Source: Lutibacter sp. (GTDB lineage Bacteria; Bacteroidota; Bacteroidia; Flavobacteriales; Flavobacteriaceae). Taken from it: a DNA stretch of 39,295 nt. How positions within the stretch are numbered: position 1 is the first letter of the stretch; the number at the start of each line of letters is the position of its first letter. Positions 32,521-37,065 of this stretch are shown here, one piece after another. The position numbers were made by a program, and so were the translations under genes. The notes below the pieces were generated by a model. It was not told the origin of the DNA. It saw only the letters and a program-made list of their open reading frames with translations, and did no database searches. Where the stretch lies: contig NZ_JABDRI010000106.1 of the NCBI RefSeq assembly GCF_013041805.1, positions 1-39,295 on the forward strand, read 5' to 3'.

Positions 32521-33498
32521 TTAAAAAATTATATTAAATATATATCCTGAAATTATTATACATAAAGTTACAACAAAAAAGAAAATGGCAATTAATTTTA
32601 GTGTCATTACTTTTTTAAGCAACATTGCTTCTGGCAAAGAAAGTCCAACAACACCCATCATAAATGCAATGGCTGTTCCTAATGGAATTCCTTTAGAAAC
32701 TAAAACTTGAGCTACCGGTAAAATACCAGAGGCATTCGAATACATTGGTACCGCCAAAATGGTTGCGGCTGGCACTGCAAACCAGTTATCTTTACCCATA
32801 TATTTTTCAAAAAAACCTTCTGGAATATACCCGTGCATTAAACCTCCAATAGCAATTCCAACCAAAACATAAGGTAAAATACCCATTAAAATGGTTTTTG
32901 TTTCTTTCCAAATAGATGGTAATCTATCTTTTAATGAAGTGTGTGCAGCCTCAAATTGTTCTGTTTCTTTTTGACTATTTTCTAATACTTGTTTCACCCA
33001 AGGAGAAAGGTATTTTTCAAGTTTTAATTTTTGAAGAATTATACCCGAAATGGTTCCTAATAAAACTCCACTTACTACGTATATTATTGTTGTTTTAATA
33101 CCAAACAATCCAATAAATAACCCAATAGCAACTTCGTTTACTAAAGGTGATGTAATTAAAAAAGCAAATGTTACACCTAAAGGAATTCCTCCCTTTACAA
33201 AACCAATAAATAATGGTACAGATGAACATGAACAAAATGGTGTAACAACGCCAAATAGTGATGCCATTAAATACTCAAATCCGTATAATTTTTTTCGAGA
33301 AAGATAATTTCTTACTTTTTCAACTGGGAAGTAACTATTTACAATTCCCATAAAAAAGATAATGACAAAAACTAACAATAGAATTTTTATACTATCATAA
33401 ATAAAGAAGTTTAAGGCTTCCGCTAAATGATCTCCTGATTTTAATTTAAGAAGTTCAAATACAAGCCAATCTGCTAATTGTTGAATCCAATCAAACAT
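32521..33498 (-). CDS. ArsP-type permease (UPF0718/DUF318 family)
   Basis: A 325-residue membrane protein with about eight hydrophobic helices in two halves. The cysteine-rich signature TPFCSCSSVPLF near residue 87 and LITSPLVNE are characteristic of the ArsP_1 permease family. ArsP members export trivalent methylated or aromatic arsenicals. The placement in an arsenic operon supports such a role. The family also contains permeases of unknown substrate, so the substrate is inferred. It follows the methyltransferase gene by 9 bp. Confidence 0.85.
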   Translation of the reverse strand: MFDWIQQLADWLVFELLKLKSGDHLAEALNFFIYDSIKILLLVFVIIFFMGIVNSYFPVEKVRNYLSRKKLYGFEYLMASLFGVVTPFCSCSSVPLFIGFVKGGIPLGVTFAFLITSPLVNEVAIGLFIGLFGIKTTIIYVVSGVLLGTISGIILQKLKLEKYLSPWVKQVLENSQKETEQFEAAHTSLKDRLPSIWKETKTILMGILPYVLVGIAIGGLMHGYIPEGFFEKYMGKDNWFAVPAATILAVPMYSNASGILPVAQVLVSKGIPLGTAIAFMMGVVGLSLPEAMLLKKVMTLKLIAIFFFVVTLCIIISGYIFNIIF

Positions 33499-33507
33499 AA
33501 AATATTT

Positions 33508-34122
33508 TTATTTTTTTCCAATAAAACGAATTACAGAAGCTTTTCCCTTATGATATGCTCCTTCATTTAATTCAATTTCTTCATGCTCTAAAACTACGAC
33601 TTCAAGTGCTGAGAAATCCTGTTCAATTTCATCCAATGAAAATAGCATTTCACTATTTTTTGGACCAAGATCAATTTTATATTCTGCATTAATTTTAAGC
33701 TGTTCTTTACTAAAACCTTCTAAAATTAAGAGTCCTCCCTTTTTTAAATATTTTGTTATTCTTTGGTGATATTCTGACTTTAAATTAGGTGGAAAATGTG
33801 CATATATTAATACAATTACATCAAACGAATTTTCCCTAAAACTGATTTGAGAAAATTCCCCAACTAAATAATTAATATTCACATTATTTAATTCGGCTAA
33901 TTTTAAAGCTTTCAACTTTCCTTGATTACTGATATCAAAACAAGTAACATTTAAACCCTTTTTTGCAGCAAATACAGCATTTCTACCTTCACCTTCTGCA
34001 GGTAAAAGTATACTTCCTTTTAGGTTATATTTAGCTATAGTATCTTCAAAAAATTGATTTGGTTTTACACCATAAGCAAATTCTTCATTTTTATATCTTT
34101 CTTCCCAAAACTCTTTCATCAT
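33508..34122 (-). CDS. Class I SAM-dependent methyltransferase in the arsenic operon
   Basis: A 204-residue protein. Motif I is [18 protein letters not shown] followed by the acidic ribose-binding FDIS, and later motifs are [11 protein letters not shown] and GGLLILEGF. The N-terminal [14 protein letters not shown] resembles TehB/thiopurine-type methyltransferases. It lacks the three conserved cysteines of ArsM, so it is probably not a classical arsenite methyltransferase. Its start overlaps acr3 by 4 nt (ATGA-type), so it is coupled to the arsenite efflux gene and may detoxify a metalloid such as tellurite or selenite, or a product. Function is uncertain. Confidence 0.85.
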
Positions 34123-35159
34123 AGTGCTTTTAAATAATATTTTTTCTTTAAATATAATGATACATTTACTAAAGCAATTAAAACGGGAACCTCAACCAAG
34201 GGTCCTATAACACCCGTAAAAGCTTGTGGAGAATTTATTCCAAAAACAGCAATTGCAACTGCAATAGCCAATTCAAAATTGTTTCCCGTAGCTGTAAATG
34301 CAACTGCTGCATTCCGTTTATAATCAATATTCATAGCTTTTCCAGTGAAAAAACTCACAAAAAACATCAATACAAAATAGATAACTAATGGTACTGCGAT
34401 TTTTAATACGTCAAAAGGAATTTCAACAATTAAATCACCTTTTAAACTAAACATTAGAACAATGGTAGCTAGTAAAGCAATTAGTGTGAGTGGAGAAATA
34501 AATGGGATAAATTTTGTATTGTACCATACTTCCCCTTTGTATTTTACTAAATATTTCCGACTTAAAAATCCGGCTAAAAAAGGAATTCCTAAATATATTA
34601 AAACACTTTTAGCAACTTCAAAAACTGAAATATTTACATCAAATCCCTCTAAACCAATAAAATTGGGTAAAACTGTAATAAACAACCAAGCGTAAAAACT
34701 ATACGTAATTATTTGAAATACACTATTTAAAGCTACTAATGTTGCACCATATTCTCGGCTTGCTCCTGCTAAATCGTTCCAAACAATTACCATTGCTATA
34801 CAACGTGCTAAACCAATTAAAATTAAACCAGACATATAACCTGGCTCGTCTCTTAAAAAAATTACTGCTAATACAAACATTAAAATTGGACCAACAATCC
34901 AATTTAAAAATAAAGACAAGGACATTAATTTTGTGTCTTTAAAAACTGTTGGAATTAAACTATAATCCACTTTTGCTAATGGAGGATACATCATTAAAAT
35001 TAGTCCAATTGCCAAAGGTATATTTGTAGTTCCTACCGAAAAAGAATCAGTTATTTCACCGATTTGAGGAAAAAAATATCCTAACCCAACACCAATGGCC
35101 ATTGCTAAAAATATCCATATGGTTAAGTACTTATCTAAAAATTTAAGTCTTTTTTTCAT
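34119..35159 (-). CDS. acr3: Arsenite efflux transporter Acr3
   Basis: A 346-residue protein with ten hydrophobic helices of the bile-acid/arsenite/riboflavin transporter fold. The conserved [14 protein letters not shown] with Cys120 is the key Acr3 signature, and a second half with a [20 protein letters not shown] segment carries the conserved Glu. Acr3 extrudes As(III) using the proton gradient. It overlaps arsC by 1 nt and the methyltransferase by 4 nt. Confidence 0.95.
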
Positions 35160-35773
35160 TACTTCTTAATTTGAGAAAATACATACATCATTTCTGAAGC
35201 AATTTCATTACTTCGCTCCAAATATTTTTCCGCTTGTTGTGGTGTGTTATCAAATACTTTAGGATCATTATATCGAATAGGAATTCTAGCTTCACAACCA
35301 ACAATAAATGGACAATTCTCATCAGCGTGATCGCAAGTCATTAATGCTGCAAACTCACCCTTTGGATTAAAATTATCATCATATTTTTTAGAAAAACATA
35401 TAATTGAAGGATTGTTTTCTGCATATTTTACGCTATAAACTGGGTTATCCTCATTAGACAACTTCGTAATTTGAAACCCTTGACTTGCTAATATTTGCCC
35501 AACCATTGGAAACATTGCTGTAGCTTCCGTTCCGCCAGAATAACAAAACACATTTTTTATTCCAAAATTTTGAGCAGCTGTTTGCGCCCAAATTTGAGAC
35601 AAATGACTTCTACGTGAATTATGTGTGCAAATAAAATTTAAGTTTACATTTTTATTTGCTGAAACTTTAGACTGAACAAAATCAATCATTGGTTGTAAAG
35701 TTTCTTTTCTTTCTACTGAAATAATTAAGTTCTTTAACTCTTCTACAGAATTATTTATTTCTTTCAATAACAT
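35159..35773 (-). CDS. arsC: Arsenate reductase ArsC-like, low-molecular-weight phosphatase family
   Basis: A 204-residue protein with the CX5R(S) active site in [17 protein letters not shown] near residue 50. Conserved [10 protein letters not shown] follows near 148 with GC at 158, cysteines that could relay oxidation. The length exceeds plain LMW phosphatases (~140), mainly through extra N-terminal residues. It reduces arsenate to arsenite, which Acr3 then exports. It lies 10 bp after the thioredoxin-like gene, whose CPNC site could be its electron donor, and overlaps acr3 by 1 nt. Confidence 0.9.
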
Positions 35774-35783
35774 AATCTACTAT

Positions 35784-36104
35784 TTAGCAACAACCAGATT
35801 CTTTATCTTCAGAAGAACAACAAGAAGACTCAATGTTGTCGTCTGAACAACAGGCATTATTTGCAAAATTATCAACTAAAAAAGCCTGTATTTCATTCTT
35901 TGAAGGAACTTTACCTTTTATAACAACTTGTTCATCAATAACAACAGCTGGTGTGCTCATAATATCATACATCATAATTTCCTGAATATCTGTTACCTTT
36001 ACAATGGTAGCATCAATATTCAACTCGTTTACAACTTCAGTTACAATCTTTTCTGTTGTTACACAATTTGGGCAACCTGTTCCTAATATTTTAATTGTTT
36101 TCAT
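35784..36104 (-). CDS. Small thioredoxin-fold protein with a periodic Cys-Cys tail
   Basis: A 106-residue protein. The first ~80 residues are a small thioredoxin-like domain with GTGCPNC (C11, C14) and a STPAVVID cis-proline region, typical of redox-active disulfide proteins. The last 22 residues are unusual: Cys-Cys pairs at 85-86, 95-96 and 105-106, exactly ten residues apart, separated by acidic and serine residues. Such a tail is suited to bind a soft metal or As(III). It lies in the arsenic operon before arsC and may be an electron donor for it or an ArsE-like partner; both are inference. Confidence 0.87.
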   Translation of the reverse strand: MKTIKILGTGCPNCVTTEKIVTEVVNELNIDATIVKVTDIQEIMMYDIMSTPAVVIDEQVVIKGKVPSKNEIQAFLVDNFANNACCSDDNIESSCCSSEDKESGCC

Positions 36105-36163: not shown

Positions 36164-36637
36164 TTAACAGCAATTAGATGCTGGTGCACAACAATTAGAG
36201 GTGGTATTAACTATATTTGAAAGTTTTACTTTTGATTTTTTAATTGAAACATCACAAGCATCCTTTGCCAAACAATTAGTTTGTTTGGTGGTTAATAAAA
36301 AATTTATTCCATCAAAATCCAGATCATATTTACCAATAGTTAAACCTTGATATTCTACTTCAATTTCTAAATTTTCTAGATTTAAAATTTTATCGGATAA
36401 TTCAATTATATGAATTAATTTTTCAGGGTGTAAACGATGATTATAGTCATTAGCCTCCCATAACTGAAAATTAGCAACGGCTTCATTTCTAACCGTTCCT
36501 CCACAATCAATAAAATGCTTTGTTACTTTACCTACTTCTGTTACATGAAAATGACTAGGAACCATATTACCATCTGGCAATTGAAAAGCTATTGTATTTA
36601 AATTCCTTAAATATTCCTTTATTTCTTCTATTTTCAT
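36164..36637 (-). CDS. DUF6428-type protein with Cys-Cys tail
   Basis: A 157-residue protein of unknown function. I recognise it as the DUF6428 type found next to arsR in Bacteroidota: LPDGNMVPSHFHVTEVG near residue 20, FIDCGGT, and FQLWEANDYNHRLHPEKL. The HFHVTEVG part looks like a ligand or metal site. The end has a Cys-rich tail (NCCAPASNCC), with CC at 149-150 and 156-157. It lies 26 nt... downstream of an ArsR-type operator (36661-36678), so it can be expressed under arsenic control separately from arsR. No enzyme function is assigned. Confidence 0.82.
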   Translation of the reverse strand: MKIEEIKEYLRNLNTIAFQLPDGNMVPSHFHVTEVGKVTKHFIDCGGTVRNEAVANFQLWEANDYNHRLHPEKLIHIIELSDKILNLENLEIEVEYQGLTIGKYDLDFDGINFLLTTKQTNCLAKDACDVSIKKSKVKLSNIVNTTSNCCAPASNCC

Positions 36638-36660: not shown

Positions 36661-36678
36661 CATCGCAAATAAACGATG
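36661..36678. promoter_or_regulatory. Second ArsR-type operator, before the DUF6428 gene
   Basis: CATCG and CGATG arms flank CAAATAAA, an 18-bp palindrome. The core ATCGCAAATAAACGAT differs at one base from the site at 37032-37047 over the arsR promoter. It lies between arsR and the DUF6428 gene, 24-41 bp before that gene. On the minus strand the middle reads TTTATTTG, one base off the -7 consensus TAnnTTTG. Confidence 0.72.
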
Positions 36679-36695
36679 AATTGAATTAATTTTTT

Positions 36696-37025
36696 TTAGC
36701 AATATGTTTTTATAGTCTGTTTTTCAAAAAAAGAAGCAAATAATGTTTTTGCTTTTTGCCAGTTTTCTTGATGTATACAATACTTTATTTTTGGTGGGTT
36801 TACTTCCCCATTTATCAATCCTGCGTTTTTCAATTCTTTTAAGTGTTGAGATATTGTAGATTGTGCTAACGGTAAAACATCTAACAAATCCCCAGTATAA
36901 CAACAACTTTGATTTTCTAAATAATTTAAAATTTTAATCCGTGTTGGATGCCCCAAGGCTTTTGCAAATTTTGCCAAAGCTTCAGTTTCTTCCAAATAAT
37001 TAATATCTTGAATTGTCCTTTTCAT
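36696..37025 (-). CDS. arsR: ArsR/SmtB family transcriptional repressor
   Basis: A 109-residue winged helix protein. The recognition region LAQSTISQHLKELKNAGLI is at about residues 53-71, preceded by FAKALGHPTRIKILNYL. The sensor cysteines differ from E. coli ArsR (CVC): here C41-C42 (QSCCYTG), with further cysteines at C83 and C109, the last residue. It should bind As(III) or Sb(III) and leave the DNA. Its own promoter -7 element lies inside the palindrome at 37031-37048, which implies autorepression. The gene leads the arsenic operon. Confidence 0.93.
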   Translation of the reverse strand: MKRTIQDINYLEETEALAKFAKALGHPTRIKILNYLENQSCCYTGDLLDVLPLAQSTISQHLKELKNAGLINGEVNPPKIKYCIHQENWQKAKTLFASFFEKQTIKTYC

Positions 37026-37030
37026 AAGTT

Positions 37031-37048
37031 CATCGCAAATATACGATT
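37031..37048. promoter_or_regulatory. ArsR-type operator covering the arsR -7 element
   Basis: The near-palindrome CATCGCAAATATACGATT (core ATCG and CGAT arms, 8-nt centre) lies 6 bp before the arsR ATG. Its centre on the minus strand is TATATTTG, the promoter -7 element, so a bound repressor would block RNA polymerase directly. A near-copy lies at 36661-36678. Confidence 0.8.
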
Positions 37049-37065
37049 AATAAATTAGTTTCCAA
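37036..37065 (-). promoter_or_regulatory. Promoter of arsR and the arsenic operon
   Basis: Minus-strand TTG at 37063-37065, 19-nt spacer, TATATTTG at 37036-37043. The predicted start (about 37031) is only about 5 nt from the arsR ATG at 37025, so the message would be almost leaderless. Confidence 0.78.

Follow-up and report, generated by a model that had tools for sequence, protein, structure and literature searches.

An arsR operon of Lutibacter sp. raises the question of why one regulator gene would be accompanied by two near-identical palindromes, one over its promoter and the other between it and the next gene. We analyzed this operon in a window of 39,295 nucleotides, the whole stretch of DNA under study (contig NZ_JABDRI010000106.1). 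A first-pass annotation had proposed that both palindromes, here called op1 and op2, are ArsR operators, with op1 shutting off arsR and op2 separately gating the rest of the operon.

The operon and its two palindromes

The genes lie on the minus strand in the order arsR, DUF6428, ArsE-type thioredoxin, ArsC-like, ACR3, methyltransferase, and ArsP permease, with the following features.

37063..37065 (-): TTG with a 19-nt spacer to the -7 element, a possible -33 element, weakly conserved
37036..37043 (-): -7 element TATATTTG within op1, an exact TAnnTTTG (consensus from PMC6847099 and PMC9723704)
37032..37047 (-): op1, predicted ArsR operator over the arsR promoter, ATCGTATATTTGCGAT = ATCG-TATATTTG-CGAT
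36696..37025 (-): arsR, class B (Cys41-Cys42 and Cys83), ArsR/SmtB family, 109 amino acids
36688..36697 (-): A8T2 tract at the arsR stop codon
36662..36677 (-): op2, predicted second ArsR operator with no promoter features, ATCGTTTATTTGCGAT = ATCG-TTTATTTG-CGAT
36164..36637 (-): DUF6428 gene (PF20001), 157 amino acids, C terminus Cys-rich
35784..36104 (-): thioredoxin-like protein, MTH895/ArsE family, tail Cys-rich
35159..35773 (-): ArsC-like protein (arsC_pI258 match weak and below cut-off; no Pfam family)
34119..35159 (-): ACR3 arsenite efflux transporter (match above its cut-off)
33508..34122 (-): SAM-dependent methyltransferase
32521..33498 (-): ArsP_1 permease

The window ArsR matched PF01022 at 52.9 bits (cut-off, 22) and NF033788 at 64.4 bits (cut-off, 55), which identifies an ArsR-type winged helix-turn-helix protein. 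Four of the top five DUF6428 matches among the named genomes (best 80 of 509) were from Lutibacter. A CC pair was present in the last 12 residues of the available DUF6428 stretch in 197 of 197 loci, and the C-terminal part of the thioredoxin-like protein gave a subthreshold match to ArsD. The Cys-rich tails of these two proteins and the C-terminal Cys of class-A ArsR (described below) are possibly a shared arsenic-handling tail.

Both palindromes were confirmed where the first-pass annotation had placed them. op2 lies in the 58-bp gap between arsR and DUF6428, 24 bp before the DUF6428 ATG as had been noted, and 370 bp downstream of op1. The pattern ATCGCAAATAWACGAT had two exact matches in the window, the next match having three mismatches, and two in the whole genome (2,812,216 bases), which were op1 and op2 themselves; the reversed control had 0. 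Specificity lies in the exact sequence, as the genome gave 64 matches with up to three mismatches versus 68 for the reversed control.

Exact matches to the commonest op1, ATCGTAATATTGCAAT, occurred in 74 of 100 family genomes, mostly one per genome (reversed control, 0), and 29 of 30 fetched places sat just 5' of an ArsR-family ORF. Scanned with a weight matrix, 66 named loci (414,260 bases) yielded five matches apart from the two expected sites, at four places: two were the op1 of another arsR, and two (L071 and L087) were op1-type sites farther from the called arsR start. Within the genome and the loci scanned, the palindrome is not equally frequent elsewhere, which would have spoken against the annotation. 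A mobile origin was rejected: viral contigs gave 13 pattern matches and no relative of the window ArsR, and the 63 matching plasmid records were all below 60% identity.

Conservation of the pair in two ArsR classes

A DUF6428 search of the family, distant relatives included, matched in 229 of 299 genomes; 130 family loci, not all matches, were fetched, and the best 80 of 509 were used from the named genomes. We located arsR and DUF6428 with profile HMMs and discarded 16 loci in which the two genes were not both found, 12 nonadjacent pairs among 228 arsR/DUF6428 pairs, and 19 identical copies, leaving 197 nonredundant arsR-DUF6428 loci, window included. A site was an ATYG-N8-CRAT no more than 60 nt before arsR (op1) or in the arsR/DUF6428 gap (op2).

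This search, which the first-pass annotation had suggested for related genomes, found op1 in 187 of the 197 loci. In 94 it found op2, a candidate repressor site that would be transcribed along with arsR and the gene after it. Dinucleotide shuffles predict 1.4 and 1.1; these are not independent events, as the loci are related by descent. The op1 pattern itself had been used to find 24 of the 197 loci. Without them, op1 was present in 103 of the 107 nonredundant loci sampled by genome and in 60 of the other 66, and op2 in 62/107 and 27/66. Gaps of at least 35 nt contained op2 in 94 of 135 loci and lacked it in 41, and shorter gaps contained it in 0 of 62, 25 of these being too short for any site; of the 107 genome-sampled loci, 81 had a gap of 35 nt or more, and 62 of these had op2. 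Tenacibaculum and Arenibacter species are among those whose locus carries it. Because op2 is missing from about half of all loci, these operons evidently work without it. On a rough tree in which few branches were supported, its state changed at least 31 times, in keeping with an old element that was repeatedly lost, or regained.

DUF6428 was present in 96 of 395 genomes of a phylum sample. From the loci listed beyond the family we read a subset of 54, of which 10 had no detectable arsR upstream. The 44 with arsR had op1 in 41 cases and op2 in 22 (0.34 and 0.26 expected from shuffles), the latter spanning five families. In three loci from another class of the phylum (L365, L367, and L368), an op2-like ATCGCAAAAATACGAT or ATCGCATAAATACGAT stands directly 5' of DUF6428, ending no more than 3 nt before its ATG, and the profile detected no arsR upstream. 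Many Flavobacteriaceae genomes (e.g., L224-L242) have distant DUF6428 relatives (25 to 34% identity), and most of these, too, are preceded by op1 and arsR.

Most DUF6428 operons are led by a class-A ArsR, 41 to 55% identical to that of the window. The window ArsR belongs to class B, which is mostly found before a thioredoxin gene. We compiled 58 class-B loci (ArsR identity of 60% or more, taken in order of match quality and counting the window; five identical named copies dropped), and found op1 in 55 and op2, within 60 nt 3' of arsR, in 27, with 0.5 expected for each. Where the next start lay at a distance of 35 to 80 nt, 24 of 28 class-B loci had op2; at less than 35 nt, 2 of 16 did. The ORF following these 27 sites was thioredoxin-like in 23 cases, DUF6428 in 3, and another protein in 1; in the closest relative, L273 (ArsR 88% identical), op2 is directly 5' of thioredoxin. 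Thus, op2 accompanies the 3' end of arsR and not the gene that comes next. Conservation of the predicted pair greatly exceeds chance and extends over two ArsR classes and several families. The first-pass annotation is supported in its two operator-like sites for a single autoregulator, the first at the promoter and the second positioned so that it could gate the genes behind it; the tie of op2 to arsR in place of DUF6428 is a revision. In L078 and L108, an extra gene separates arsR from DUF6428 and op2 stays directly 3' of arsR; the inserted product is secreted-looking, about 210 amino acids long, and in L108 weakly matches the window ArsC-like protein.

The arms of the predicted operators follow the ArsR class. 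All 27 class-B op2 sites had a CGAT arm, versus 12 of the 94 from DUF6428-type loci, and a class-B-like op1 accompanied four of these 12; the combination of ATCG and CAAT arms accounted for 80 of the 94. The proteins differ as well. C42, C44, C81, C83, and a C-terminal Cys were present in 96 to 100% of class A (194 rows, a few class-B included); class B (63 rows) has C41, C42, and C83 in 98 to 100%, but T44 and K81. These Cys residues, a possible As(III)-binding pair or triad, bear some likeness to the E. coli CxC motif. Because the class-B set differs from that of class A, the inducer of the window ArsR could differ from As(III), although the ACR3, ArsC-like, and ArsP genes in the operon favor arsenic.

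Within Lutibacter, L034 and L037 have adjacent operons, class-A arsR-DUF6428-trx-arsC-ACR3 followed by class-B arsR-trx-ArsP. In the window, L033, and L091 there is a single operon led by class-B arsR, with class-B op1 and op2. We infer from these sequences that the regulator and both operators were probably exchanged together in front of DUF6428. The two adjacent ars operons of some Lutibacter appear to have merged into one in the lineage of the window.

Promoter features at op1 and op2

As annotated, op1 has an exact -7 element at its center with TTG 19 nt upstream. It resembles Bacteroidota sigma-A promoters (TTTG / TAnnTTTG; PMC6847099, PMC9723704) in this exact -7 element and differs from a plain promoter of that type in being embedded in a palindromic operator, with op2 lacking the element. 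In Flavobacterium johnsoniae, T-12, A-11, T-8, T-7, T-6, and G-5 are reported as nearly invariant, and the -33 element as far less evident than the -7 (PMC6847099). The complete TTG-N19 promoter of the first-pass annotation is present in the window but is not a class-B trait, as the stretch checked contained TTG at only 14 of 55 class-B op1 sites (88 of 187 in DUF6428-type loci). The conserved promoter part before class-B arsR is the predicted -7 element and not TTG-N19, and DUF6428-type op1 sites mostly have five of the six key -7 bases.

Taking the -7 G as position -5 puts the predicted transcript start about 6 nt 5' of the arsR ATG, close to the 5 nt first estimated. Such a leader is short relative to F. 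johnsoniae, where leaders exceed 10 nt in 87% of transcripts as reported in PMC6847099, and this counts against our preferred explanation. Class-B promoters carry a further signal: 28 of 55 had a TGAY-N4-RTCA dyad starting 31 to 32 nt 5' of op1, 27 of them at -31, versus 0.2 expected from base shuffles. The dyad was found in 1 of 187 DUF6428-type loci and was absent from the window's own arsR promoter; examples are L246, L259, and L262 (class-B loci among L245-L300). By arithmetic, its center falls at -41.5 relative to the start implied by the -7 element. This is the classical position of a CRP/FNR-type activator, and the agreement supports that start site.

At op2, the half-site arms are retained in both class-B and DUF6428-type loci. 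The window op2 differs from op1 by a single change, in which T replaces A as the second base of TAnnTTTG. That near-invariant A was found in 55 of 55 class-B op1 sites versus 0 of 27 class-B op2 sites, and the earlier hint that op2 overlaps a usable, one-off -7 element is not supported by this comparison. Mean matches to the six -7 bases fell from 5.65 at op1 to 3.70 at op2 in class B and from 5.01 to 3.69 in DUF6428-type loci. Since the window's A-to-T change is a systematic difference between the two sites in class B, op2 looks like a promoterless operator.

Its being instead the operator of a weak internal promoter, driving DUF6428 and later genes independently of arsR, strikes us as unlikely. 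The window's TTTATTTG is one base from TAnnTTTG, DUF6428-type op2 sites have T (81%) and A (87%) at the first two -7 positions, and a similar A-rich stretch follows both op1 and op2 in these loci, possibly as the sign of a weak second start or of a signal for translation; L231, a class-B-like locus outside the 58, also retains the -7 A at op2. Set against this, the A is lost from all 27 class-B op2 sites, and TTG was present in the stretch checked at 1 of 94 DUF6428-type and 3 of 27 class-B op2 sites. In the window, TAnnTTTG with a properly spaced -33 was absent from op2 as judged by the sigma-A consensus only, the closest upstream TTG being 26 nt from the octamer (19 nt at op1). By that consensus, relatives tend the same way, class-B op2 having lost the -7 A and DUF6428-type op2 nearly always lacking TTG, and a second sigma-A promoter there is disfavored; a promoter for another sigma factor could escape the consensus.

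We think it quite improbable that ArsR dimers at op1 and op2 loop the arsR gene, with op2 an auxiliary operator that tightens repression at op1. The window does have two like sites on one DNA, 370 bp apart, but across loci the spacing ranges from 367 to 432 (79 of 93 within 377 to 387), covering a full helical turn with weak phasing (R = 0.20, n = 93), and looping with strict phasing is rejected on that ground. To our knowledge, ArsR/SmtB proteins are dimers with no tetramer form, which also counts against looping. Conservation of op2 as an RNA hairpin, an attenuator or mRNA stabilizer, is very hard to credit: the ATCG and CGAT arms could pair in the window and in class B, but in 80 of 94 DUF6428-type op2 sites the arms set C against A, for which reason we reject it, and the arms track the ArsR class. 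Just as remote is a chance look-alike or functionless duplication. The absence of op2 from about half of the loci would suit it, but the excess over shuffles, the divergence of the center while the arms are kept, and the recurrence in other families and a second ArsR class argue otherwise; the shuffles and the scan of whole loci reject a chance look-alike.

A candidate roadblock after the regulator gene

Because op2 has kept the repressor half-sites, shed the promoter, and lies between arsR and the effector genes, it is best read as a roadblock. We put at roughly two in three the probability that op1 and op2 are two operators of one ArsR autorepressor, with op2 an inducer-releasable roadblock, with ArsR binding, roadblocking, and arsenic as the inducer each inferred. 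An ArsR dimer at op1 would cover the -7 element and the start site, shutting off initiation, and a second dimer at op2, inside the transcript, would block RNA polymerases that leaked past op1. The off state would then yield little arsR message and almost none for DUF6428, thioredoxin, ArsC-like, ACR3, methyltransferase, and ArsP. The inducer, most likely As(III), would release op1 and op2 together.

The A/T tract found where arsR ends may belong to the same element. It was found in 91 of 94 loci with op2 versus 5 of 41 without (gap of at least 35 nt), descent being ignored in this comparison; an independent-pairs test had 4 supported pairs only. In 82 of 94 loci, a distance of 17 to 19 nt separates the stop codon of arsR from the start of op2. 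We regard it as an even call whether op2 and the A/T tract form a composite ligand-gated roadblock, a standard part of Bacteroidota ars operons that moves with its regulator, both operators having changed in a Lutibacter lineage with the exchanged DUF6428-leading regulator. In such an element, leaked transcripts would end at the point of ribosome release from the arsR message, allowing basal repressor to be made while the effector genes stay silent.

The closest known layout is engineered. The E. coli reporter pPR-arsR-ABS-egfp carries a second ArsR site downstream of arsR (Stocker 2003, cited in Merulla 2013; PMC3918153), and a second site after arsR is reported to lower background in engineered E. 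coli circuits (PMC3918153). These reporters share with the window the order operator-arsR-operator-output gene, one repressor, and a second site to cut uninduced output (PMC3918153). They are man-made, however, with E. coli ArsR, its operator, and a reporter downstream, whereas the layout here is natural, with another operator and a whole resistance operon, and occurs in several families of the phylum. As in the E. coli R773 and K-12 arsR operons, an ArsR/SmtB repressor is the first gene and presumably represses its own promoter. The E. coli operator is described as lying upstream of the promoter (PMC3918153), whereas the first operator here contains the -7 element and a second is added.

Blocking of elongating polymerase has precedent, as one review lists ArsR among the repressors shown to do so, its roadblocks comprising LacI, PurR, GalR, CcpA, CodY, and E. 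coli ArsR (PMC10310618). Like the sites reviewed there, op2 lies within transcribed DNA, 3' of the promoter, where it would act as a roadblock. Unlike them, it comes directly after the gene for its own repressor, and a block there would separate that repressor from the effectors. In the literature on second ArsR sites, roadblocks, and DUF6428, the titles and abstract openings of the matches listed do not describe this architecture for Bacteroidota.

If our reading is true, these operons would be a natural, widely conserved counterpart to the engineered low-background arsenic sensor design. Bacteroidota gain a defined candidate operator, with the same half-sites present with and without a promoter within one operon. 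The arrangement would explain how an autorepressor keeps its own basal supply without leaking the pump genes, and it would offer ready-made tight switches for Bacteroidota strains.
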